DNA from: Auricularia sp. M13
Taxonomy: Eukaryota; Basidiomycota; Agaricomycetes; Auriculariales; Auriculariaceae
Reading direction: 5' to 3'
NCBI GenBank assembly: GCA_037042915.1
Contig: CM073201.1
Span: 1,240,001 to 1,304,000, forward strand
DNA length: 64,000 nt
The position numbers were made by a program, and so were the translations under genes. Shown here piece after piece: positions 14,066 to 51,207 of the stretch. The notes under the pieces were generated by a model that searched no databases, was not told the origin of the DNA, and saw only the letters and a program-made list of their open reading frames with translations. Each line of letters begins with the position of its first letter. Positions within the stretch are counted from its first letter, which is position 1.

Positions 14066-14323
14066 TCTTCGCATAAAGCCTTGCAGTCTGTGAAGAGCTC
14101 AAATTCAGCGGGGCAGTGTACTTTAAGGAAGGCCATGTATCTTTAGGGTACCTGAAGCATATATAGCAGAGTACCGCACCCTCAGGAAGTTCAAATTTGG
14201 TCCACCAATGTGGTATAGCGAACCGCAATCAATGGTCAGTCAATATGTGTGTAGAAACCAAAGTACGACTGGCCTAATATGCCAGGGAATAATAATCAGC
14301 TGCCCAAAGACGTCTACAACAAC

Positions 14324-14659
14324 CAGGGGGCCCGCATGATAAGGATTGTCAATATCGGGTGGGGGTGGGTGGGTCGTGGGAAGATTGATGGCAACTCAAT
14401 TGAGTTGGGACCCAAACAATGGTCACAAAATGTTCAACGAGTGAGAATCGAGCTTTTTTGACTCATATTTTTTGCCAGAACGTTGCGGTCTGCCTTGCAC
14501 GGCTCACTGGCAAAAAATCCGGGGTTTTGGGAGAGAACGGAGGCCTCAGTACGCAAAAGACATCCAAAAAAACTGAATGGGTTTGATTAGCGCGCACATC
14601 TTCCCACGACCCACCCACCCCCACCCGATATTGACAATCCTTATCATGCGGGCCCCCTG
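14324..14659. mobile_element. hAT-like MITE with 8-bp target duplication
   Basis: 336-bp palindromic element nested in R1. The ends are inverted repeats of about 60 bp beginning CAGGGGGCCCGCATGATAAG. An 8-bp duplication ACAACAAC flanks it (14316-14323 and 14660-14667). R1 copy B carries the undisturbed single ACAACAAC at 18600-18607. The 8-bp duplication and CAGGG terminus fit the hAT superfamily. It has no coding capacity. Confidence 0.85.
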
Positions 14660-14698
14660 ACAACAACAAATCCACAAAACTCGTGTGCTAGATAGTAT

Positions 14699-14903
14699 CA
14701 CAGGGCGCAAAGCCGGTGATGAATTCGGTGAATTCGACAGACTGACGAGTCACCCGCAGAATGCCGGTTTGTAACAATAGTGCACTAGACTTAGTATTTG
14801 TCGCCATGGCAACAACTACAAAATGTACATTTTGCCACAATCGAGACGGCGATTCATCAGTCTGTCGAATTCGCCGGATTCGTCACCCGCTTTGCGCCCG
14901 GTG
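14699..14903. mobile_element. 205-bp palindromic MITE with CAC(A/C)GGGCGCAAAGC ends
   Basis: The ends are inverted repeats of about 50 bp: left CACAGGGCGCAAAGCC, right, read inwards, CACCGGGCGCAAAGCG. Both continue into GAATTCGACAGACTGA. The likely target duplication is TAT (14696-14698 and 14904-14906). R1 copy B shows the uninterrupted site near 18633. The 3-bp duplication and CAC ends resemble CMC/EnSpm-type elements; a Harbinger-type origin is not excluded. Confidence 0.75.
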
Positions 14904-14930
14904 TATATGCATGACACCGTTCCCATGCAA

Positions 14931-15982
14931 TCACCCCTTCTTTAAAGAAACGTCGCGTCTGTCCGTCACGCCTCCGCGGATGCGGCCGGTCTACTCGCCG
15001 TTCTTGATCGTCTTCCGGCACAGCCCGCTCCTCTGTCTATTGCCTCGACCCGTTCCTGCCCAGTGCCGCTCTGAAAAACGCGACGTTCCTGCGCTGTGCC
15101 GCTCGCTCTGCAGATCCCCGCCTCTTCAACGATCTATACGCGATGCCCTGCGACGTGCCGACCTGCCCGATGCCACTCCCTCACTGCTCTTCACTACCTG
15201 ACGCGTTCCCGTCATTTTCTGCGCACCGTCCCTACTATTTCGTCTGTCGTCCTTTTTTTTCTGGCCTTTTCCCGTTCTCCTACATGCTTTCAACGCCGTA
15301 TGAGTCCTGGCCGCCGCGACACCCGTCATCTCGGCCCCGCAATCTGTTCTTCCTCAGTGCACACGGCCGCATTCCTTTCTCGCGCACACGGATCGTCTCC
15401 CCGTGGCCCGTTGTGGCTCATCGACCCCAGCTCACGTCCTCCCGTTGCCTGCATGCGCGAGACTTTCCAGTCACTCCCGATGCCTCCCTGTGCTTGCCGA
15501 GTTTCCTTTAGACCGCAACCCCCATGTATTACCTCTGCTCACTCACCACTCGCTGTTCGTGCACTGTACTCCACTCGGCTCCATTTTACACTCCCTGGCG
15601 GCTTCTCTGCTCTGATTGCTTGCTTTCTCTGTGCGCGCAGATGCCTCTCTTTCTTGCTCAAGGAGATGCTCGCAAGTTCTGAGTTCTACACCGACAGAAC
15701 AATACTCACAGCCTCTTTGTAGGCGTGTTATCCAGCTTTGTGTTCAATTCTGCTGTCGCATGAAGCCTCGAAGATCGTTAGTTCAGAGTTGAACAAATGG
15801 CTATCCACTCAAATGCGGGACGTGCACGCAGGGAAGCATAGTAGATTTAATTGAAATAATCACGAAGCACTAGCAAACCAAGGCGCCGCGGAGCGCGCAG
15901 CGCGAAGCGTGTGACTTGTAAACATCAACATCGTCAGCGAGAATCCGTTCAAGCGGACTTCCAAAACGGCTGGGGACGAGCC
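14931..15982. other. Pyrimidine-rich stretch without a supported gene
   Basis: The plus strand of about 14930-15650 is strongly C/T-rich, giving long but low-complexity open frames. I see no domain, no homology to neighbours and no clear exon chain. A stretch of similar composition lies at about 28060-28560. It could be a decayed repeat or a long UTR. Confidence 0.4.
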
Positions 15983-16217
15983 TCAGGCTAGGCGGGTGTC
16001 CACGAACTTAGGCAAACGGCTGTAAGGCCTGCCACGAGCCTTGCTTATCCCCAGATGTTCTAGCTCAAACCCCAGACTTTCCTCCCCAACCGTTACAGCT
16101 ACGCCGGGCACATTGGGCGTATTCAATCTTCGGTGGGTGTGGGTAGCCTCACCGTCGACGTGAACGCTCATATCCTCGTATTGTGATTAGACAGCTGCAC
16201 TCGACGGACAACTCAAT

Positions 16218-17839
16218 ATGTCAGAGTGAGTTTTCGATATGTGCTGTGGCTACAGCATAGCACTCACGTTATCCGTACGCGGTTCTCTAGTATAGCGTGA
16301 GCCGCATGTATATATGCGCATGGCCGATAACTCAACACCTACATGGCATGAAGTCTGACACGACCGCCATCAAGGTGCATTGCGACTAGGCTTGGCCATC
16401 GCATTATCCTCATTACTTTTTGCAGACTATGTGCAGACGAGCAGGATTTCTCAACATGGCTTCGGCAAGTCTCAGTCACTGTGGTGAAAGCGCGGTACGG
16501 CGCACCATATGACAAGGTTGTCTACCCCATCCAGCTTGGGGTGCGTCGACTATTTTGCCTTGCGTGTTGCGCCTGACTTGCCCAGGCGCCGCTCAAAGAG
16601 AACGAGGCACCAGCAGAGCATCCTCAACGTAGGATTTACGATCCAACCGTCGCGGAGTGCCTCGATGTCCTCCGGCCGTTATTTCAGCCCACTGCCCGGC
16701 CAGACGGAGCGCAAGACCCGTACAGCGTGAATCGCAACCTGAACTTATTAATCACTACCTTCATTGATTTCTACCGTGCCGTTCCCGGGGCGGCGCTGCG
16801 CTTCCCTGTCGACCGCATTCTCAATGCGGTGTTCGAAGCGAGCATGCTCCTGCGGTGAGATTTAGAATTCTTGAGAGGGCAAGGCTAATGTTTTCTTCTT
16901 TGCAGACGTGAAGCAGCTGTACCCCTGCCCAACATAGACATGGAGACACGAAATCGTCTACGACTGGCTCCCAACAGCCACGCCAGGATAGACAACGTTA
17001 TATATAACATTACCCGATTCCAGACGTGCGACCTACCTACAAAGCTCGTCAATGACGCCGCAGACAATCCCTCGCTCGCAATGCTCCCACGGGACTGTGC
17101 AACGTTTCCTCAAGTAGCCATTCCCGACTTGATTATCGGGTACAAGAAAGAGAAGGAGGTCGATGTTCTCAACCAGGTCCTTCTGGACATGTCCATTGCG
17201 CTGGCATTTCGCAAACATATGAACCTTACATCCCGCCCCGTCCATGGCGTAGCCATTCTGCGCGACCGTTGGTTCTATTTCTATGGAGAATGGAAGGATG
17301 GTGTACGCTGTTCATTGACGTACGGTGCTTGACACTAATTCAATCACTCACAGGAAGCTATCATTACGCAATACGCACCCGCCCTGCTCGCAAGGTTTGA
17401 GCAGTGGATAACGTTTTACATCTCGATGATCAAGATTCGTGAGAAGATTGACGCCGTTCCGCTCTCTGACATCAAATTGTCGGAAATTCTGACGAACGAC
17501 CCCCTGTCCCCCGCATCGGTGCCCGCCAGGAAGAGGAGGTCGTCGACGCGTCCCAATTCTCCCAACAAGAAGTCGAAAACGGGCCAAGAGGCAGCGCCCA
17601 ATCCTCTTGCCGGGGGAGAAGCCGATGAACAAGCCGCAGGAGCGGCCGGCGAGGATGACTTCTCAACGCCTGGAGACACGGACGACGATGAGTCTTCGCA
17701 CGACTCGCCACTGTCCCACTTCGCGACACCCGGGACTCACAATGGTATCCTGGGCCCTCACGACTCTAGTCCCAGCCCGGCTCTCGTTGCGCCAACGCCT
17801 CTCCACCCTAATCGCAAATACGCCTTTCTGGATGGCTAA
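16218..17839 (+). CDS. Orphan fungal protein, possible PD-(D/E)XK-like core
   Basis: Predicted exons are 16218-16225 (tentative start MSE), 16426-16540, 16586-16854, 16906-17302 and 17354-17839. The last four join cleanly with 45-51 bp introns; the 200-bp first intron and 8-nt first exon are weak. The middle of the protein reads IPDLIIGYKKEKEVD, then LLDMSIALAFRKHM, then VHGVAILRDRWFYFYGEW. A PD, charged strand, helix and hydrophobic strand order of this kind occurs in PD-(D/E)XK nuclease-like domains of fungal effector-like proteins, but I cannot assign all catalytic residues. The C-terminus has a basic patch RKRRSSTRPNSPNKKSKT, a likely nuclear signal, and an acidic Ser-rich tail. I do not recognise the family. 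R1 copy C starts right after its stop. Confidence 0.6.
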
Positions 17840-17847
17840 CACGGCAC

Positions 17848-18390
17848 CGCAAAGACTTGCAATCTGCGAAGACAGCTCATTCCATCACATTCGTGCGATG
17901 TACTTGAGGAGAGTCGGGTATCTTTAGACTCCTCGATGCATAAATACATCAAGAGTATATGCCACAGGTGCGCAATCTGTCATTCTTTAAATTGCTCCAC
18001 TTCGCAGTATGGCACAGCGCAACAATGGCAGCTGTTTGCAAAATTGAGCGAAATCCACAGTTGTGTGTGTTCGGGCTCGTGGATTCGCGCTCCACCGGCG
18101 CTCTCAGTGCCGCCATAGAAATTTGCACGAGGGGCGGACTTAGAGAGCATAGGCCGTATTCGCGGGTAAAATCTGTATGGTGAAGTGGAGCATCTCGTTG
18201 GAGTGCGAATCCACGAGCCCAAACACACACACACCTGCAGATTTCTCTCAATTTTGCAAACAGCTGGGACGATCAATATGTGTGTATTATCCTATGTAGC
18301 CTATGCCAGGGTATAAGAACCAGTCGCCCAAGGATGTCGACAACAACAAATCCACAGAACTCGCGCACTAGATCGTACTTATGACACCGC
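17848..18390. repeat. Dispersed repeat R1, copy C (interrupted by a MITE)
   Basis: Diverged copy of the repeat at 14070. Shared marks are TTGCAATCTGCGAAGA versus TTGCAGTCTGTGAAGA in copy A, then GTATCTTTAG, AACAATGG, CAATATGTGTGTA, TATGCCAGGGT and AACAACAAATCCACA. It starts within about 10 bp of the stop of the orphan gene. It holds an insertion at 18029-18266. Confidence 0.65.
18029..18266. mobile_element. 238-bp palindromic MITE with CAGCTG ends
   Basis: The termini are inverted repeats of about 60 bp beginning CAGCTGTTTGCAAAATTGAG and running into TCGTGGATTCGC. The interior is short and noncoding. The flanks (AATGG and GGACG) give no clear target duplication beyond GG, so the superfamily is open. 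Confidence 0.7.
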
Positions 18391-18394
18391 TCAT

Positions 18395-18453
18395 AAACAT
18401 CGTCAGCTGCCCGTCTTCCCGCTCATCATCCGCTGCGGCTCGCGCGGCCGTAT
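18395..18453. repeat. Duplicated fragment of the NIPA gene 3' end
   Basis: The stretch AACATCGTCAGC...CCGTCTTCCCGCTC...ATCCGCTGCGGCTCGCGCGG repeats the end of the transporter gene at 18660-18750, with an internal deletion of about 25 bp. It sits between R1 copies C and B, so the unit 'R1 + gene 3' end' looks tandemly duplicated. Confidence 0.65.
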
Positions 18454-18478
18454 CGAACAACAAATCCACAAAACTCGC

Positions 18479-18660
18479 GTAATTTGGTCCACCAATGTAG
18501 TATAGCGAACCGCAATCAATGGTCAGTCAATATGTGTGTATAAACCAAAGTACGACTGGCCTATGCCAGGGTATAATAATCAGCCGCCCAAAGACGTCTA
18601 CAACAACAAATCCACAAAACTCGCGTGCTAGATCGTATATGCATGACACCGTTCCCATGC
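18479..18660. repeat. Dispersed repeat R1, copy B (uninterrupted)
   Basis: Starts at AATTTGGTCCACCAATG and ends at TGACACCGTTCCCATGCAA, 8 bp from the stop of the transporter gene. It keeps the empty sites of both MITEs found in copy A. A short extra R1 piece precedes it at 18454-18478. Confidence 0.75.
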
Positions 18661-32531: not shown

Positions 32532-32713
32532 AGCTGAACGCGCCCAATCGTCTCGGTTGTACAACTTATTTAGATCTCACCGGCTCGGGGATATAATGAA
32601 TGGCATAATGCGGGAAGGACTATGTATACCAGATTACTGTAGCATCTCACAATTGCATGTCATCGCCGATTGAGAAGTGCGGCTTGGAGATATCTCCTCG
32701 GATTACTCTGACC

Positions 32714-32976
32714 CAAGCTCCTCCCCAGCAGACCCAGCGGTACACGATCGCGTTATTCTCTAGTAATGGACGAAGAGTAGATACGGACGGAATATCAGAA
32801 AGTTCCGAATTTTGATCACCGGTGAAAAAGCCGAAACCGAAGCGCGATGTGTACCGCTGGGCCGCTGGCACCACTTGCACTAAGCGCCCAAAAGGCGCTG
32901 GGGCGCTACAACCGAAAGCACCGGCCGCTGATTGCAAGTCCATCAGCCGTCGGCGATAATAGCCCGGCAGCGCGCG
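32714..32976 (+). repeat. Left terminal inverted repeat (263 bp)
   Basis: Matches the reverse complement of 38385-38647 over its whole length as far as I can read. Similarity stops after CCCGGCAGCGCGCG. It contains an internal palindromic block around GGGCCGCTGGC and a GCGCCCAAAAGGCGC hairpin, possible transposase-binding structures. Confidence 0.93.
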
Positions 32977-33117
32977 GCACAACGTTCATAGCAACATCGA
33001 TGTGCACACACCGGGGCGGAGCCTACCAAGGTTTCAAATGCTCAGGAATCCAATCACACATAGGTTTTATACCTGCATGACCGCTATGAAGAGTCACACT
33101 GCTGCCGTTCTGCCTCA

Positions 33118-35910
33118 ATGCCCCTGAGTTGGTGCTCAAGCCGCACCATAACCACGTTGCATAGTTGCTCTCTGTCATCTACCTCTGAAGCTATGGTCAT
33201 TGGTACTGGACCATTGGATGCCGTTCTAGAGTGCATGGCACTCCATCATATCTCTCTCCATGATCTGCTCTGCGCGACCATGGACAGTCATCAGCTCCAT
33301 CATCGGGTGCATTTTGACACAGCCTACGCTCAGCGCGATGCAACCGATATTCACGCACTACTGGACCGCCTTCTGGGAGACCCATCGATTGGAAAGTCCG
33401 TCTCTCGATGGGCATGTGCGACAGCAAAAGCCAGCCTCTGTCACGAACTTGAGGCAATCACGCAGATTCAGGCTGGGCTTCACTTCAACGCTTCTCATGT
33501 TGACATCGCCGCGCTCACCACCTTCTCTCTTGAGAATCTCGCTCGACGATTCCAGGCGGACGCACCGCAGCTGTGGGACATTGTCATCTCGCTACTAGAC
33601 GCGAACACGACCAGGCGAAAACGTTACGAGCGTGCGCGAAAGGCTGCACCCAACGCTCCCCCAGCGCTATTCCCTGATCTCGAGGCCAGCGCTGATGCTG
33701 GTCATGCTGATGACCTGTACTGGGGAGAGCTAGACGAGCTCACAGAGGAGGAACTCGAGTTCCTGGAACGTCTTGACCTCGACGTGGAGGAACAGGCTAC
33801 CCGCGGACCGCGCCGAAAGCTGTGTGCTATGGACCGCCAGCAGGCCATGCTGCCCATTGTGAGTTTGATCTTACCGATCCTGCATGATTTAGCTGATATA
33901 TTGCAGCGCGCCGTGGCAGTTATCTGCATTATGATGCAGAGTGCTAATGGTCGATGTAATGGGCTGGCCGCAATTATTGCCTTTTTCATGCAGTCGCGGC
34001 ATACTCCAGAGCCCGTCGTCGAGATGCTTGCTCATATTGGTCTTTCTGTATCTCCCACAAGCATTAACCGGATGGTCAACTCTCTCACCGCCGATCACCG
34101 CGCGCAGCTTAGGCAGCTGGCAACTCAACTGGTTCTCAACATTGGATACGATAACTTGAACCTGGGGTTCAAAACGTCCCAGCCAACTGTTGAGAAACAG
34201 AATGCTTGGTACAATGTGACTTCTGGGACGTTTCTCGCTCTGATGCACGCCACTCCACGCGACCTGATGGTTTCCGCTCAGCTCTGGGCAAAGTCATTGC
34301 TGAATTACGAGCGCGTGGACAATGTTCCGGTGTTCCGAATGAACTACACAGATGTGGCTAAGCTTATTCCAAAGCCTAACTACATTCCGCCGGTCTTTGC
34401 CTACCATGCCCGCCGTATTCTTGTTCGCAGTGTGACCAAATTTGCTCGCTTTGGTTCACAGCTCGGCACCCGCCCCAGCGGGACTGCATCTCAACTTGAG
34501 ATTCCCGTCGTGCGCACTGTGCAGTATCCAGCGAGGACCATGCAGATCGACGAGTCGACCAACGACGCCCAAGCCGCAATCCTTGCTGATCTACTCGATC
34601 AAGCAGGATTTTCCGGGCGACTGCATGAGCTTGAGAAGTATGTCATGCTCGTCCATGGGGATCTCGCCACTCTTGAGAAGATCGACTCGCTGATCAAGAG
34701 TCGCCGCATCGAAGACACCGCTGAATCGCGCCTCCAATGGGTAATCGGCATCCCAGGCATGTTTCACATCAAGATGGCTGCAGCAGAGGCGATCTGGCGC
34801 ATCTATATCGAGCCATTTGTCTCACTCAAGGAGAGCACCTCCGTTTACTACATGGCGTGCAAGCTTCGTCCGAAGGAGACTGTCAAAATTGGCTCCAAGC
34901 CGACCTATCGTCAGCTTCACGATGTGATTCAACATGTCACGTCCGCGTCCATCCTTGACTGCTGGGAGATTGTCGCAAAGGAGAAAGGATTCGACAGTCT
35001 GGATGCTTTTGCTGCAAGCAACCCGACGTGGGAGCGGATCGTCTCTCTTTCCAAGACTCTTGTGCAGCGTTTTGTCGCAGGCGATGACCTTGATGTGGCA
35101 AGATGCTCTCCCGACAGCCTGCGAGATATGGAGCTGGAGAACAGTCAGCTCTGGCACCGTGACGCTTTCCTCTATCTCGAACTCTGTCACGCTTCGGCAC
35201 ATGGGCATATTGGGCGCGTCGAGAAGAGCTTGGCCTTCTGGGTCTTCATCTTTGCGGCGGTTGGAAAGCACAAGTACGCAACATATCTATCTCGCTTTCT
35301 CACCAGCCTGGAGCATGTCTATCCCGCTGAGACCGCAAGAGCAATACGAATGAACTGGCTCTGCAATCCTTCCGGCAAGATAGATGGATTCCGCGGAGTG
35401 GATTGGTTGCTAGAAATCAATAACATGCTTCAGAAGGTGAGTGGTGCAACGTCTCTGATATACTACCTGTTTCTAATCTTGCCGACGCAGACAATGCACA
35501 GCGGACAGAGTTCTAATCGCACTTTGGACCACATTATCAAACACTCGCCGCTGATAGAGCTCTACCGCAACTGTCTGACGATCGTTGAAACAAATTTCCG
35601 TCTTACGCATCGGTACATCAAACATCAACCACCAGATATGTCGCGCACCATCCACGCTATTACAGACATCATGGCAAAGAACCGACTTCATCTGCACACT
35701 CCAGGAAGGAACACAGTGAGGGCAGTTTCAAACCAGCTTACTGAGGGGATTAAAAAGCTCTCACGCGATAAATCTCTGCTCGTCGTGCTTGATGGGATGT
35801 CCGACCCACAAGTGCTTGACACTGACCGCCAGCCGGCAACGGAGGATGAATTTGCGGATTTCCTGACGGACGAGGATTTTATTAGCTTCATAGAGAATAT
35901 GGATCTGTAG
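33118..35910 (+). CDS. DUF6589-type protein, candidate transposase
   Basis: 930 codons open from ATG at 33118 (a second ATG at 33193 is possible). Two perfect GT-AG introns lie inside, 33859-33906 (48 bp) and 35437-35490 (54 bp). Both are multiples of three without stops, so spliced (896 aa) and unspliced forms are both open. The DUF6589-like core shows LNIGYDNLNLGFKTSQPTVE, IDESTNDAQAAILADLL, VHGDLATLEKIDSLIKSR and WVIGIPGMFHIKMAAAEAIW. The Asp in YDNLN (residue about 344), the Asp in HGDLAT (about 513) and a Glu near AAAEAIW (about 558) are my candidates for an RNase H-fold DDE/D triad. An acidic patch (ELTEEELEFLERLDLDVEE) precedes the core. Being the only other gene in an intact TIR element makes it the likely transposase; this is inference. 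Confidence 0.82.
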   Translation: MPLSWCSSRTITTLHSCSLSSTSEAMVIGTGPLDAVLECMALHHISLHDLLCATMDSHQLHHRVHFDTAYAQRDATDIHALLDRLLGDPSIGKSVSRWACATAKASLCHELEAITQIQAGLHFNASHVDIAALTTFSLENLARRFQADAPQLWDIVISLLDANTTRRKRYERARKAAPNAPPALFPDLEASADAGHADDLYWGELDELTEEELEFLERLDLDVEEQATRGPRRKLCAMDRQQAMLPIVSLILPILHDLADILQRAVAVICIMMQSANGRCNGLAAIIAFFMQSRHTPEPVVEMLAHIGLSVSPTSINRMVNSLTADHRAQLRQLATQLVLNIGYDNLNLGFKTSQPTVEKQNAWYNVTSGTFLALMHATPRDLMVSAQLWAKSLLNYERVDNVPVFRMNYTDVAKLIPKPNYIPPVFAYHARRILVRSVTKFARFGSQLGTRPSGTASQLEIPVVRTVQYPARTMQIDESTNDAQAAILADLLDQAGFSGRLHELEKYVMLVHGDLATLEKIDSLIKSRRIEDTAESRLQWVIGIPGMFHIKMAAAEAIWRIYIEPFVSLKESTSVYYMACKLRPKETVKIGSKPTYRQLHDVIQHVTSASILDCWEIVAKEKGFDSLDAFAASNPTWERIVSLSKTLVQRFVAGDDLDVARCSPDSLRDMELENSQLWHRDAFLYLELCHASAHGHIGRVEKSLAFWVFIFAAVGKHKYATYLSRFLTSLEHVYPAETARAIRMNWLCNPSGKIDGFRGVDWLLEINNMLQKVSGATSLIYYLFLILPTQTMHSGQSSNRTLDHIIKHSPLIELYRNCLTIVETNFRLTHRYIKHQPPDMSRTIHAITDIMAKNRLHLHTPGRNTVRAVSNQLTEGIKKLSRDKSLLVVLDGMSDPQVLDTDRQPATEDEFADFLTDEDFISFIENMDL

Positions 35911-35913
35911 CTA

Positions 35914-38356
35914 TTATGGATAAAACTCTTCTGCGGGAATGGTGCGCAGTGTGCTAGTACTAGCACCGTCCGCATTACGCTCAGCGACAGTGGCTTGCGG
36001 GACTTCAGGGCACAATGGAATATTCGATGTAGTAGGATCGGGAGCTGGGCGCGGGGCAAGCGATTTAGGATGCATGGGACAGAGGCGATTGCTGGCTATT
36101 GCAGCAGTGAGTTGAGGAGCTGCACTCGGAATGTGATAAAAGTGCGCACCTATGTGGTCAAGTGAGCCGCACTTCCCGCACCTCCGCTTGTCAACCTTTC
36201 GCCTCTTATTTGATGATGTAGGAGTGTGGGGCGCATTGACGTCCACCTGTAGTGCATCATCAACTGCAGCGGTGTTGGACAAATCGGCGAGCGCGGGTCG
36301 TTTGTTGGTGCTGGGTGCAGTATGGGTGAGTTTGGCTTTCTTGCGCGCAGGAGGACCATCTATGATGGTTGATCAGCCACTGATAACGCAAATGAAGACC
36401 TGCGCACCGGTGCGTCCATCGGCTGCACGCTGGCGAGATGTATCCTGCGGGATGTGCTTCTCGACGACGCCAAGAATCCTAGGCCCATATTTGAGCGAGT
36501 ACACCCAGGATGTGTTGTTGTAGAGGTCTGAGGGGCTGCGCAATGCGCGGTAATGAGCAAGGTCTACGATGAGGTTGAGCAGATCTTCGACGAGAAAGAA
36601 TTGCTCGGCCATGTAAATGTCGCCGAGCTCTTCCTGCGCCAGAATGTAGCGCAAAGCGCGAAGGCCATTCCAGATCGCTCGCTCCTTTGGCCCTCGCTGA
36701 TATGCGGGGGTCTTGACTTTGTTTGGCGCTCGGCCACGCTCTGGCCGGTCACGAGCGTCGAGGTCTGCTTCGGTGAACTCATCTGGATCACAGAGATCGC
36801 AGCATATGCGCCCCTGCGGGGGTTGGCATCGAGGACAGCAACTCTTTTCCTGCACTAGATAAAGTCAGCACATTGGGAAAGAATCTCAAATCAAAGGCCA
36901 GTACGAACTGGCTTTATCATTGCTGTAGTGGACGTCGGCAACTTGCCGTCGACACTTGCGAGGAATGCGGTCCGCGTTCACGAACAAGTCCATATTGCGC
37001 TCAATCGGCGCGCTCCTGCCTTTGCGCTTGGCTGGAACGAGCGGCTTTGAGGGAGGAAGAAGTGCGGCGGACGGCCGAGCCGTCTGGTCAGGCCGCTCAG
37101 GTTCCGCTGTCCGAGACGCGGCTCCGCGATCGTCCTCGTCATCGTCATCATCAGCATCGTTGTCGTCGTCCTTCCAGAAGCGAGATGGCTCCGCTAGGAG
37201 TATAGCGTCTCCTTCCAGAGTCGGGTCACGAACAGCGCGTCCAAACCGCTGCATGAGAGTGTCAAAGGACTCCGGAACCTTCCACTGCACAACAAGTTTG
37301 ATATCTGGAATGTCCAAACCCTGTAATGAATATTAGAAAAGGAAATGCGAAGCTGAGAAACCCACCATGCCAGCTGCATCAGTGCAGATAAGTCCCCAAA
37401 GTTCTCCATCCTTAAACTGCTGCAGTTTCTGTTCTTTGAAAGCGTCACTCATGCCCGAGTGATACCAGACAAATTTCCCTGTTCCCACGCGACGGATCAA
37501 GTAGTCCCCAATCTCCTCAGCATCGTCTCGGGAGTTACAAAGACAAGAACCTTGGGTGGTCGCAGAAAGCCTCCGTCCGGAGCGTGTCGAGCAAGGAAAG
37601 CGAGATCGGCACAGGTCTTCATGGGGAAACGCATGCGACGGACACTGTATCGGATGTTAGGACGGTCATTACTCCGTCTCACAATACAGGTGTTCTTTGG
37701 ATCGAGGCGGAGAATGGTGAGGAGGTCTGCAACACCTGCTTCCGATAGCGTAGCAGTGAGGCAGTAAACACGAGTAGTCGGGGGTAGACGCCACAGAATC
37801 TGTATCGCAGTGACATAGTCGGGTCGGAAGCTCCGTCCCCACGTCCCAAGACAATGAGCTTCGTCGAGAGCAAGAGCGAGATTCCGGGTGAAGCGCGGCG
37901 AGTCCCAGACCTTGGCCAATCGGGGATCCTGGACGAGCTCAGGTGGGATGATTAGAGCGCGAGCTTTGCCGTCAACAACGCTCTTATCTTGTCAGATTAA
38001 GAAACAAAGCTTGTGTAGTGGGCGCGCACCTTGATAGCTTCCGCAGAACAAGAACTGCCTGTCAACGCAACGGCCGTGATGCCAGAAGCCGCTGCATGGG
38101 CTGTTATCTCGGCGGCTTGTTGAGCGGCAAGGACCAAGAGCGGGGATAACACAAGCAAGGTGCTGGTCTGATCGTGGATGAGAGGCAGCCACATGGTCAA
38201 TGTCTTGCCGCTGCCTGTCCCCGAGATGAAAATGCAATTCTTGCCCTGCATCTGTTGCATGCTGATGTGAACCTGTGATAGGCATGGTGTCTTGCCAAAG
38301 GCCTCGAAAGCGCGCTGACGGTGCTGCTCTGGTGTCGGCAGCTGTTTCGGCGGCAT
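35914..38356 (-). CDS. RecQ-like DEAH helicase with zinc-knuckle tail, one frame break
   Basis: Exons 38030-38356, 37366-37982, 36909-37320, 36388-36854 and 35914-36359. Helicase motifs in order: I IFISGTGSGKT, Ia LLVLSPLLVLAAQQ, II LALDEAHCLGTWG, III CLTATLSEAG, IV/V region FVWYHSGMSDAFKEQKLQQF and ICTDAAGM-GLDIPD, VI LMQRFGRAVRDP. After an acidic run (WKDDDNDADDDDDEDD) the protein has a Cys-rich cluster CCPRCQPPQGRICCDLC. It ends with a basic stretch and a knuckle-like CGKCGSLDHIGAHF. No RQC/HRDC domain is seen. Within exon 2 the frame changes by one base between the VFVTP and DDAEEIGDYL segments (about 37527-37534), with no usable intron. Either this copy is broken, or a one-base sequence error lies here. 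Its role in transposition is inferred from location. Confidence 0.85.
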
Positions 38357-38384
38357 GAACAAAGGCAGCGCACAAAAAACGCGT

Positions 38385-38647
38385 CGCGCGCTGCCGGGCT
38401 ATTATCGCCGACGGCTGATGGACTTGCAATCAGCGGCCGGTGCTTTCGGTTGTAGCGCCCCAGCGCCTTTTGGGCGCTTAGTGCAAGTGGTGCCAGCGGC
38501 CCAGCGGTACACATCGCGCTTCGGTTTCGGCTTTTTCACCGGTGATCAAAATTCGGAACTTTCTGATATTCCGTCCGTATCTACTCTTCGTCCATTACTA
38601 GAGAATAACGCGATCGTGTACCGCTGGGTCTGCTGGGGAGGAGCTTG
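38385..38647 (-). repeat. Right terminal inverted repeat (263 bp)
   Basis: Inverted partner of 32714-32976. It ends GGAGGAGCTTG, directly followed by the second ACTCTGACC target duplication. The helicase ATG is 28 bp inside its inner edge. Confidence 0.93.
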
Positions 38648-38656
38648 ACTCTGACC

Positions 38657-46998: not shown

Positions 46999-47479
46999 TG
47001 TTGCGGTCTTTGTCGGGTCCCTCCTCCCCCGCTGTTTCATTTCGCCGTCCCGTGGCCCTCGCACCTCGTCCGGGCGCCCCAAACTCCTTGCGCCCGGCCC
47101 CGCGGCCCTTTCGTCGGCGCGACCAAGCGGTCTCTCCGCTCGGCGAGTATCTCGGTCTCTTCCCAGGAGAAGGGTACTATGACAGGATGTTTCTGGTTTG
47201 GTTGGGCTCTATTTATCCCGGGTTTCCTGTCTCGCCGACGACGCCCCGGCGGTCTCTTTCGGCCTGATCTGTGGCGCCCGCGTGACAACCGGTCGGTGGC
47301 GCAATTGGTCCGCGAGGCCCCCCGGCCTTGCTTCCGTAGTATATATATCTGGGCCGTCGCCCCTCTTGTACCTTAGGTTTGGTCTGGTCTATCATACCGC
47401 TTATCCGCGTCTCCCTCTCCCCACTCATCCCTTCCCCTCGGGCGTCGTCTCGGAGAGTGATATAGCAGTCACCGTGACA
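46999..47479 (+). repeat. 5' LTR (481 bp)
   Basis: Starts TGTTGCGGTC, ends CACCGTGACA. Contains a TATA element at 47340-47348 and the sequence TAGGTTTGGTCT at 47374-47385, complementary to the primer-binding site outside it. Confidence 0.92.
47340..47348 (+). promoter_or_regulatory. LTR TATA box
   Basis: TATATATAT about 30 bp upstream of TAGGTTTGGTCT (47374), the predicted RNA 5' end under self-priming. Confidence 0.6.
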
Positions 47480-47481
47480 TA

Positions 47482-47493
47482 AGACCAAACCTA
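47482..47493 (+). other. Self-priming primer-binding site
   Basis: AGACCAAACCTA lies 2 bp after the 5' LTR. It is a perfect 12-nt complement of TAGGTTTGGTCT at 47374-47385 inside the LTR. In Tf1/sushi-type chromoviruses the 5' end of the RNA folds back on the primer-binding site and serves as its own primer. The spacing from the TATA box fits a transcript starting at about 47374. Confidence 0.75.
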
Positions 47494-48151
47494 CCCTCCC
47501 TCCCGACGCTCGAGATCCCCATACCCCTTACTCACCACCCTTCCAATCCGGGCAAACCGTTCGGTCGGCGTTGCTCGGTCCAGGAAGGAATCCGACCCCT
47601 CGGACCGGCTAGGGACCCCTCGCGTCGACGAGGACCCGTCGCGACCGCCGCGCCCACTCATCGGCCCACCAGGACCCTGCAGGACCCACCCTCCGGACGC
47701 CGAGCCTTGCCCACTGGCCTTCTGGTCAGGCACTCAGCCAACGAGGACCCCTCCAGACCCATACGGTCGTCAAATCCAAAGCTCATTCCATCACCGGCTC
47801 CTGATCTCCCCTCTTCATCAGAGCCAGGTCATCCGCGGCGAGACCACCCCCCACAAGCCCTACTCGCCGAACGCGCGCTGCTGCGTCCCCACCCCTCGGT
47901 CAACCTCTAAACCTCCCACGGCCGACCCCTCTCTCCAGAACCTCACCCTCCGCGCATCCCGAGAGCAAGTTCCCCCCCCCGTGGTGCGCGCGGCGCATTC
48001 ACATCATCTTCCTCGGATCGTGACCCCCATCATCCCCACGCATCAACGCTTACGACACATATACCATATAATCCGGATCGGCCGCCAGACCGACGCCTCT
48101 TTCCCCCCTTTTCCCCGACACGCCCCTTTGTTCGGACCGAACGCTCACAAA

Positions 48152-48943
48152 ATGTCCCAGTACGACGAGACCATAGTTAACCCTCAATACATACCGGCGG
48201 CAGTCCTGGACCACCGCGTACACCGAGGAGTTCCTCAGTATCTCGTCCAATGGATGGGCTTTCCCCCCGAGGACGCTAGCTGGCAACTGGCCGCCGACCT
48301 GGACGGAACCGGACTCGTGGAGGAGTACCACGCCGAACCACCGGAGCCAAATGAGGACCAAGGCGCCGCACAGGACCTGGACCAGGATGCGGACATGGAC
48401 CTAGGCGAGCACTTTGGCGACGGATCCCAAGAGCTGTTCGGCGAATCACCCATCAGCACCGGCGAGTCACCTCCCGCCGCCGACGAGTCGTCCGAGCTTG
48501 AGGACGCGCGCCCGGCCACACCTCCGCTGGGGCTCATCCCCCTTCGCGCTCGTATCCGGTCGCCGGACCCGGACGACACCCGGCTCGACATCGCCATGCT
48601 CGTGGCCCCTCCCCAACCGTTCTTCTGGATGCTAGACTGCTTCACTCACTACGGCCGCTTCACTGCCCCGAGACATCTCCCGCTCGATATCTCGCGTTAC
48701 TGGGTACTCCCGACCGTCGTGCGCAATGACCGAGGCCGACGGGCTCGCACCGAGCTAGTGGTCTTCTCGTTCCCACCCCGCCTCGGCCCTCATCTCATCA
48801 CGTCGCCTACGACGGAACGAGCCCTCCAGGTCGTTCGGCTTACGGCGTGCCTTGTCTGGGACGTCCGCGAATATCGTGCCACGTACGCCGACGACGCCCT
48901 GGTCCTGCGGATCGCGTCCCCCGGCCCGGCCCACCGTCTTTGA
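48152..48943 (+). CDS. Stand-alone chromodomain protein of the LTR element
   Basis: 264 aa from a true ATG. Residues about 8-55 form a chromodomain: IVNPQYIPAAVLDHRVHRGV, then PQYLVQWMGFPPEDASWQLA. The aromatic/QW-x-GF-x-x-x-D-x-SW pattern is that of retroelement chromodomains, which follow the integrase in chromoviruses and steer integration to histone marks. An acidic Pro/Ser-rich linker follows, then a folded-looking segment (PQPFFWMLDCFTHYGRFTAP, RHLPLDISRYWVLPTVV). No integrase or RT is fused to it. In function it could target an integration complex supplied in trans; this is inference. Confidence 0.75.
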   Translation: MSQYDETIVNPQYIPAAVLDHRVHRGVPQYLVQWMGFPPEDASWQLAADLDGTGLVEEYHAEPPEPNEDQGAAQDLDQDADMDLGEHFGDGSQELFGESPISTGESPPAADESSELEDARPATPPLGLIPLRARIRSPDPDDTRLDIAMLVAPPQPFFWMLDCFTHYGRFTAPRHLPLDISRYWVLPTVVRNDRGRRARTELVVFSFPPRLGPHLITSPTTERALQVVRLTACLVWDVREYRATYADDALVLRIASPGPAHRL

Positions 48944-49239
48944 ACGCTCCGGACGGTCGCCCCTGCCTTGTACAGCAGCACGCTTTGCGAAGCTGAAACC
49001 GCCCTTCTTTGTCGATATCTACTGGCGTACAGGTGACGCCACCCGTCGTTCCCTCCCCCTCGGCGACCGTGCCCAGAATCGGACCCTACCTCGGTCGGAC
49101 GCCGCTTCGGTCGGATGCTCTCCACAGTCACGGTCCCGGTCGTTTCTCATACCCCGTATTTATGCTCGTCTTTCCGCCTCTCTATTTACATATTTTACGA
49201 GCCTCCACACCACTACCCAAATCATACCCGGACACGGTC

Positions 49240-50502
49240 CTACTCCTCCATGGGTTGGCCCGCATCGACCGACTTCTCCCCTATCACGGACGCATCCCGA
49301 CCCTCGGACCGTTGGACGCGTGGCAGGAATCCGGACCCGGACCCAGACGCCTCCAGCGACGCAAAGCTGGGTATCGGACGCACATCCCCCGGCACTACCA
49401 CGCCAAGAAGGGCCAGGTCGGCGCCGAAGTCAGCAAGCACGCCGACAGGACCCGCCGGCGCCTCCGCCTCCACGCCCGCGGCCCCAGGGGAAGTCGGCGC
49501 GTTGGTGGGCGACCTCCTCACCTCGTCCTCCACCGCTCGGCCGTCATTGGAGTCGGTATCGCGCTCGCTCCCGCCTGGCGACACGAGGCGCACCGTCTTA
49601 TGGGCACGCCGGTCATCGACGAGCTCTTGCGTCCACTTGCGAAGGTTGCGCCTCAACGCCGAGATGGACAGTTGGAACCCCTGGACGATGCGGTCGCCCA
49701 GGACCTCGAGGTCGGCCATGGTGGCTGTCCCCGGCGACCGAAGCCTTCGGCGTGTGCGCGACCGCGCCACGGACGCGCCGACGGTGTCCACCACGTCGTC
49801 CTGGTCCGGATCGTCCCCGTCATCGCCGTCCACGTCAGCGTCCTGTCGCGCCCTCTTGCGCGATGTGCCCGACCGGCCGACGCTGTGAGAACACCCCACG
49901 CGGGTCCGGTGGCAACGAGCACAGGCAGTCGCCGACCCGGACACTTGTCGAAAACACGGCCGGCCGGAGCGCTCGCACTGCTCACAAGGCTGGACCCGGA
50001 CGAAGGATGTCAACGCAGGATACACCCCGGAGCAAGAGGACCTTTGACCAAGACGTACCGTGTTAAAAGGAGGCCCGACCGCGTCCTTCTCCTCGTCGCC
50101 GGTCCCTCGCGCGCCGACGTCCGAAGGCCGCTTCGGCCCAGACGCGACCGCTCCCGATGAGCCCTTGCCCTTCGTGGTCGAGGAGGTCGTTCCCGTGCGG
50201 CGAACCCCTTCCACCTTCGGCACTACGGGGAGCGAGGCTGCTGTCATGCCGAGGAGAGACGCCGCCGTCTCCAGATTGCGGGTCGCGGCGTTGCGTCGGC
50301 GCACCTCGGCGTCAATGGCCTCCAACTGCTGGCCCGCAGACGCAAGCACCGTCCGCGCCTTCTCCTCCTTCGCGTCCGCGGCGTAGTGCCCGAAGTCCAG
50401 TTGGCGCTGGATGGAGGCATGCAGCGTGAACACCCGCTCCCTGAGGTCCCGAAGTTTGCCGAGAGGCTTCGCAGTCAGTCCGTCGGCGGCGGTGGGCGTC
50501 AT
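49240..50502 (-). CDS. Antisense ORF with a Zn2Cys6-like cluster
   Basis: 420 aa from ATG at 50502, on the strand opposite to the LTR element. Residues 1-75 look like a coiled coil (KLRDLRERVFTLHASIQRQL, AIDAEVRRRNAATRNLETAA). Residues about 170-205 read CEQCERSGRPCFRQVSGSAT then ACARCHRTRVGCSHS, a CX2CX6C...CX2CX6C pattern matching fungal binuclear zinc clusters. A basic segment SRKRARQDAD and an acidic run follow. The frame stays open over 1.26 kb, and its 3' end approaches that of the chromodomain ORF (convergent). Similar cysteine-cluster proteins are common in agaric repeats. Whether it is expressed is unknown. Confidence 0.6.
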   Translation of the reverse strand: MTPTAADGLTAKPLGKLRDLRERVFTLHASIQRQLDFGHYAADAKEEKARTVLASAGQQLEAIDAEVRRRNAATRNLETAASLLGMTAASLPVVPKVEGVRRTGTTSSTTKGKGSSGAVASGPKRPSDVGARGTGDEEKDAVGPPFNTVRLGQRSSCSGVYPALTSFVRVQPCEQCERSGRPCFRQVSGSATACARCHRTRVGCSHSVGRSGTSRKRARQDADVDGDDGDDPDQDDVVDTVGASVARSRTRRRLRSPGTATMADLEVLGDRIVQGFQLSISALRRNLRKWTQELVDDRRAHKTVRLVSPGGSERDTDSNDGRAVEDEVRRSPTNAPTSPGAAGVEAEAPAGPVGVLADFGADLALLGVVVPGDVRPIPSFASLEASGSGSGFLPRVQRSEGRDASVIGEKSVDAGQPMEE

Positions 50503-50726
50503 AGGATATCGGACGGTGACGGGAAGCGGGGAGGCGAAGAGCGAGAAGTACCGCGGTTCGTGTACGGCGGCAGCCGAGCCTTTCGCGGCATCTGACGCTT
50601 AGAGTTTGATCCCGCGGCGGATGGAGCTCGGCCTGGCCACGCTATGGTCCGTCTCCCCACGCCCGACCTAACCCGCACCTCTTGGCCATTCCCCCCTCGG
50701 CCACTGGACGGCTAGAAGGGGGGTTA

Positions 50727-51207
50727 TGTTGCGGTCTTCGTCGGGTCCCTCCTCCCCCGCTGTTTCATTTCGCCGTCCCGTGGCCCTCGCACCTCGTCCG
50801 GGCGCCCCAAACTCCTTGCGCCCGGCCCCGCGGCCCTTTCGTCGGCGCGACCAAGCGGTCTCTCCGCTCGGCGAGTATCTCGGTCTCTTCCCAGGAGAAG
50901 GGTACTATGACAGGATGTTTCTGGTTTGGTTGGGCTCTATTTATCCCGGGTTTCCTGTCTCGCCGACGACGCCCCGGCGGTCTCTTTCGGCCTGATCTGT
51001 GGCGCCCGCGTGACAACCGGTCGGTGGCGCAATTGGTCCGCGAGGCCCCCCGGCCTTGCTTCCGTAGTATATATATCTGGGCCGTCGCCCCTCTTGTACC
51101 TTAGGTTTGGTCTGGTCTATCATACCGCTTATCCGCGTCTCCCTCTCCCCACTCATCCCTTCCCCTCGGGCGTCGTCTCGGAGAGTGATATAGCAGTCAC
51201 CGTGACA
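50727..51207 (+). repeat. 3' LTR (481 bp)
   Basis: Copy of 46999-47479 with a single difference that I can see. It is preceded by a G-rich polypurine tract and followed by the second CTCGC. The ORF2 frame happens to stay open back through this LTR to 50926, which can mislead gene callers. Confidence 0.92.

Follow-up and report, generated by a model that had tools for sequence, protein, structure and literature searches.

A 5,934-bp element in the genome of the fungus Auricularia sp. M13 is a two-gene transposon with terminal inverted repeats (TIRs) that has been mobile in the recent past. It occupies positions 32714–38647 of a 64,000-nucleotide stretch of contig CM073201.1 (assembly GCA_037042915.1, positions 1,240,001 to 1,304,000), the whole of which is referred to here as the window. 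The element couples a gene for a DUF6589 (PF20231) protein, its probable transposase, with a gene for a RecQ-type superfamily II helicase. It very likely belongs to AcademH, a lineage within the Academ superfamily of DNA transposons and a class matched through described features and not through comparison of transposases; we infer the same identity for the DUF6589 transposase itself. The kind has thus very probably been described already, and the window element adds a member to it.

The two TIRs (32714–32976 on the plus strand and 38385–38647 on the minus strand) measure 263 bp each and are identical base for base. A figure of 270 nt at 99%, reported by one repeat comparison, arises because that alignment extends into the flanks. 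Immediately outside the repeats lie two direct copies of the 9-bp target site duplication ACTCTGACC, at 32705–32713 and 38648–38656, and the same duplication length recurs at other copies. Between the TIRs the DUF6589 gene (33193–35910, plus strand) and the helicase gene (35914–38356, minus strand, in several pieces with a broken frame) are convergent, their stop codons 3 bp apart. The initial annotation, made from the sequence alone, had claimed identical 263-bp repeats, a perfect 9-bp duplication, exactly two genes and recent mobility. The repeats and the duplication were measured exactly as claimed, and they speak for the mobility; both genes are present, with the correction that the helicase frame is broken in this copy. 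By their sequence, the window insertion and another one on contig C6 look young, though their lineages are old, because the TIRs are identical and the 9-bp duplications perfect. Conversion between the two repeats may be another source of identical TIRs within one copy.

The same boundaries are found at other places in the genome, which was searched over 52.1 Mb in 14 contigs. Used as a DNA query, the complete element returned two more two-gene copies. The copy at C6:226021–232314 (6,294 bp) has identical TIRs of 328 bp and the perfect 9-bp duplication CCTCCGAGC; that at C7:2787295–2793209 (5,915 bp) has TIRs that agree at about 92% over 248 bp and flanks, TGCAAGGGG and CGCCAGGGG, that are equal at 7 of 9 positions. 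The first bases CAAGCTCCTCCCCAGC are common to the window, C6 and C7 copies. A genome scan with 16 end bases, allowing at most one mismatch, matched 29 places, 14 of them forward and 15 reverse, whereas a control with the pattern read backwards matched 0 and 1. Eighteen of these matches pair into nine elements, namely the three two-gene copies and six short copies of 533–573 bp. The duplication is perfect in seven of the nine (five of them short copies), agrees at 8 of 9 positions in the short copy on C3 and at 7 of 9 in the C7 copy. The remaining 11 matches are single ends or chance, and five of them were inspected (L003, L059–L062). A search for further copies with the same ends was among the checks proposed in the initial annotation, and eight such copies, two with both genes and six short, are thereby present. 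Two of the short copies, C8:496882–497450 and C9:1475427–1475998, have perfect 9-bp duplications and an inverted repeat of only about the outermost 24 bp (CAAGCTCCTACCCAGC), while in the other four the inverted repeat exceeds 200 bp; a second short family is therefore present. Among the single ends, L003 (1501–1541) and L059 (from 189) carry the same end and the same flank, at C3:2521706 and at C3:6789 near the contig end. They are one remnant at two places, so that this C3 stretch seems duplicated.

An empty site, also proposed as a check in the initial annotation, was found for the short copy on C10, which sits inside a dispersed repeat. Its flanks, joined with one 9-mer, give a sequence of 260 bases in which the junction follows base 130. 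With this query 40 scored matches from 48 candidates, counts that are lower bounds, spanned the junction in sister repeats at 92–98% identity; 39 of the 40 extend to base 168 or further and one to base 157. Beyond base 168 the C10 flank matches the same repeat inverted and the sisters are generally no longer collinear (three reach 172 or 191), which leaves some 38 bases past the junction as the basis of the proof. Copies of the repeat itself form pairs on the same strand at a spacing of about 5.3 kb (for example C10:1783973/1789301 and C11:282423/287750), as the long terminal repeats (LTRs) of a 5.3-kb retrotransposon would.

The first ATG considered for the window DUF6589 gene lies at 33193 and the stop codon at 35908–35910, with likely introns at 33859–33906 and 35437–35490, where splice sites were judged by eye. 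In a Pfam profile search the protein matched PF20231 with E=1.9e-97, and a homologue search returned four proteins, all four bearing the same domain. An alignment of 15 proteins was analyzed, comprising 11 loci of this genome and the four homologues, which come from three other fungi and one further source. Two aspartates (window codons 34150 and 34660) are each conserved in 15 of 15 proteins, as is a histidine (codon 34765) in an FH motif after the second of them; a glutamate (codon 35413) within an E..N motif is found in all 12 proteins that cover the position. A DDE transposase in which a long insert precedes the glutamate would show this pattern of residues, and the conservation of D, D and E agrees with the earlier proposal that DUF6589 is the likely transposase of the element. 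A Pfam domain of unknown function hence gains a suggested role, very probably that of an Academ-type transposase, and it follows that genes labelled DUF6589, which occur in three other fungi besides this genome, are likely transposon genes.

The helicase gene runs on the minus strand from 38356 to a stop codon at 35914–35916. Its domains were recognized in separate pieces (DEAD, E=7.1e-11; Helicase_C, E=3e-5 and 1.6e-5), and the top NCBIfam match of one 164-amino acid piece is the RecQ family TIGR00614 (E=3.3e-17), although the match does not reach the model's whole-protein cut-off. The C6 homologue is matched by solved helicases of the RecQ family (best E=6.8e-16).

The association of both genes extends well beyond the window. 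In the genome 36 matches to PF20231 were grouped into 21 loci, a lower bound. Searches with the C6 and C7 helicase homologues placed a helicase next to 16 of these loci, and two more diverged queries added three pairs, at C11, C10 and C4, giving a helicase within about 4.3 kb of 19 of the 21. All 19 pairs have the genes on opposite strands, 15 of them convergent and four divergent. The two unpaired loci (C3:2421723 and C5:4016915) are partial or stop-bearing DUF6589 matches. Helicase matches with no DUF6589 neighbour lie at C3:145 kb, C8:1235 kb, C5:564 kb and C7:1520 kb, and weak ones at C5:3107 kb, C4:2396 kb and C5:1529 kb. The pair is kept across divergence down to about 20% identity. Over ten loci, a set that omits L065, which nearly duplicates L064, and every locus for which no helicase was fetched, the distances between loci correlate across both proteins with a Mantel r of 0.95, a value reached by 1 of 20000 permutations, to which a close trio contributes much and in which distant identities are near noise level; the Spearman coefficient for the same loci is 0.75 (0 of 4000 permutations). 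In the comparison of the window, C6 and C7 copies the proportion of synonymous differences (pS) is saturated at 0.73–0.99, with nonsynonymous proportions (pN) of 0.16–0.19 in the transposase exon and 0.11–0.30 in the helicase pieces. Saturated pS together with low pN in both genes indicates that both proteins have been kept. That the RecQ-type helicase is a conserved partner of the DUF6589 transposase is therefore well supported, as the initial annotation had supposed, and the two genes stand together at 19 of 21 loci rather than usually apart. Several diverged lineages of this gene pair thus coexist in one genome, the two genes being arranged in either of two orientations to each other, and for this reason the role of a helicase in a TIR transposon becomes testable.

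Eight further pair loci (L063–L070) were read for ends, the pair loci at C2:730319, C1:3295085, C4:3535934, C13:104960 and C2:976608 lying outside this search, as do the five DUF6589 loci to which the C6 and C7 helicase queries gave no partner, three of which were paired by the later queries. L063 (CATACTCCTTCCC) has TIRs 79% alike over 101 positions and a perfect 9-bp duplication, with GGCTCTTAG; L064 (CATACTCCTACCCAG) has identical TIRs of 126 bp and likewise a perfect 9-bp duplication, with GGATCGAAC. The ends of these two diverged loci read CATACTCCT(T/A)CCC. In L066, a divergent pair, the ends TAG(T/G)CTCGT(T/C)CCCAG occur with GACGCGGCC, as found by a scan that required an exact 9-bp flank repeat and gave 0.05 matches per shuffle in 20 shuffles. 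L065 on C8 is about 99.4% identical to L064 on C2 and the matching stops exactly at the right TIR end, which provides independent support for the right boundary. Within L065, about 531–2273, an insert of about 1.75 kb carries a 373-amino acid gag-like open reading frame (ORF) with a zinc knuckle recognized by eye, flanked by TTATC; it is probably a piece of a retroelement nested in the DUF6589 element.

Several results weigh against the assignment or parts of it. In structure prediction the window DUF6589 core, modelled with four homologues, reached a mean pLDDT of 39.2 and homologue P0003 a mean of 42.0, values too low for an RNase H fold to be judged. A Pfam search of the 15 DUF6589 proteins (E<=10, with filters that remove most matches above 0.1) returned only DUF6589 and stray weak matches and no known transposase; a search of PDB sequences returned a single match at chance level (E=1.7, an unrelated chain) and no link to a transposase. 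Among the diverged loci, the ends of L068 are tentative (11 of 16 end bases agree, 0.1 matches per shuffle), L067 has a 47-bp inverted repeat and neither complete ends with a 9-bp duplication nor any duplication beside that repeat, scans of L069 and L070 found no complete ends, no such inverted repeat and no 9-bp duplication, and on the left side of L065 the outermost 120 bases of the TIR are missing. The flanks of the window copy occur once in the genome; joined, they matched only their own two halves and so gave no empty site. At most places the sister repeats of the C10 site stay collinear for no more than 38 bases beyond the junction. The window copy has a break in its helicase frame, between about 37497 and 37656, a part that is free of stops in the homologues from C6 and C7; in this copy the DUF6589 gene is open and the helicase gene either damaged or mis-assembled. 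Viral contigs were also scanned, and no relative turned up among them.

The features of the element suggest how it would move. The DUF6589 transposase would bind the TIRs and cut at the CAAG...CTTG ends, then join the ends to target DNA through 9-bp staggered cuts, from which repair would generate the 9-bp duplication. The part of the RecQ-type helicase would be to open the duplex at the ends, or at gaps or forks, while the element is excised or integrated, and the same machinery would act in trans on the short copies, which share these ends. In this scheme the DDE chemistry and the service in trans are inferred, as is the part given to the helicase. A stronger version, in which transposase and helicase form one obligate machine that peels or copies one TIR strand, by a helicase-driven replicative route instead of plain cut-and-paste, seems rather unlikely; if it were true, the coupled divergence of both genes would be a trace of physical co-operation.

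At the opposite extreme the helicase would be a passenger with no part in transposition. Mobility is evident for copies of 533–573 bp, which could hold neither gene, and the TIRs of the window copy are identical in spite of a damaged helicase. However, a copy that is short or damaged can draw on proteins supplied in trans, and the persistence of the pair down to about 20% identity with limited amino acid change in the helicase makes a passenger distinctly unlikely. The element might also represent a separate, unnamed superfamily that resembles AcademH in coupling a transposase to a RecQ-type helicase and in its 9-bp duplications. The searches matched DUF6589 to no labelled Academ relative, and a literature search found no use of the term DUF6589 and met PF20231 solely in an optics paper; the search, limited as it was, also found no statement equating DUF6589 with an Academ transposase, which is weak evidence of absence. 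Nevertheless, those published AcademH features that could be checked (helicase, 9-bp duplication, few fungal copies) all fit, and a separate superfamily appears quite improbable.

A Kolobok with a RecQ helicase (KolobokH) is a very improbable reading. In its favour, an excerpt of PMC9587614 gives KolobokH as encoding a RecQ helicase and known only from fungi, and describes one red-alga (rhodophyte) Kolobok with its RecQ helicase on the complementary strand, as in the window element; the same excerpt gives a C/DxxH motif between the second D and the E as a Kolobok trait and also as a MuDR signature. In the 15 DUF6589 proteins the residue three before the invariant histidine is G in 11, Q in three and C in one, as judged by eye at this position, the motif not being sought elsewhere. 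Kolobok target duplications are TTAA, and the window family makes 9-bp duplications; on these two grounds the reading was rejected. A Mutator-like element that captured a helicase, which long TIRs and 9-bp duplications would fit, being features of Mutator-like elements, was rejected as the least probable reading of all, since none of the 15 DUF6589 proteins has a match to the Pfam MULE transposase under the Pfam thresholds given above, C/DxxH is unconserved and a helicase at 19 of 21 loci is no single capture.

Other repeats were seen in the window. An LTR-retrotransposon-like unit at 46999–51207 has 481-bp LTRs that are 100% identical, TG...CA ends and CTCGC as the 5-bp flank at either end. 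Of its interior, some 3.2 kb long, a single frame was scanned, and this is a chromodomain ORF (PF00385, E=3.3e-9). Region 14194–18637 contains direct repeats of 83 nt, 98% alike and 4.3 kb apart, a further pair of 79 nt that is 89% alike, and an inverted repeat of 62 nt without mismatch at 14324–14385 and 14598–14659.

Helitrons have neither TIRs nor target duplications; the window element has both, and a Helitron reading was rejected. AcademH, reportedly defined by Kojima in 2020 (Mob DNA 11:15), has TIRs as a feature, and these were found at 263 bp and 100% identity in the window, at 328 bp and 100% on C6, and at about 92% over 248 bp on C7. The initial annotation regarded helicases as foreign to TIR elements and the superfamily as one that it could not name. 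Both views give way to the literature: according to excerpts of three articles AcademH and KolobokH are published with helicases (PMC10045372, PMC9587614, PMC10799480), and AcademH is in print with a helicase and duplications of 9 or 10 bp (PMC10045372, in part). The likeness to basidiomycete Helitrons with helicases (PMC4289320) is that they too are mobile elements of mushrooms carrying a helicase. KolobokH, as excerpted in PMC9587614, is alike in being a fungal DNA transposon with a RecQ helicase, and differs in having the helicase downstream of the transposase, where the window element has it on the opposite strand, and in the C/DxxH motif, unconserved in the DUF6589 proteins. Academ is counted among the DDD/E superfamilies in the same excerpt. 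AcademX shares the superfamily but has duplications of 3 or 4 bp, and a nuclease in place of the helicase; the duplication lengths are linked there to the encoded enzyme, with helicase and 9 or 10 bp in AcademH (excerpt of PMC10045372). AcademH is cited as low-copy in Basidiomycota, Ascomycota and Mucoromycota (PMC10799480, in part), and an agaric with putative non-autonomous Academ elements has been described (PMC8290104, in part). With AcademH itself, compared by description and leaving the transposase aside, no differing feature was found. The family of the window element makes duplications of 9 bp (perfect in seven of nine end-paired elements, and of 9 bp at two diverged loci), carries a RecQ-type helicase beside the transposase at 19 of 21 DUF6589 loci, and hence shares with AcademH, as described in excerpts of PMC10045372 and PMC10799480, the helicase gene, the 9-bp duplication and the presence of few copies in a fungus.
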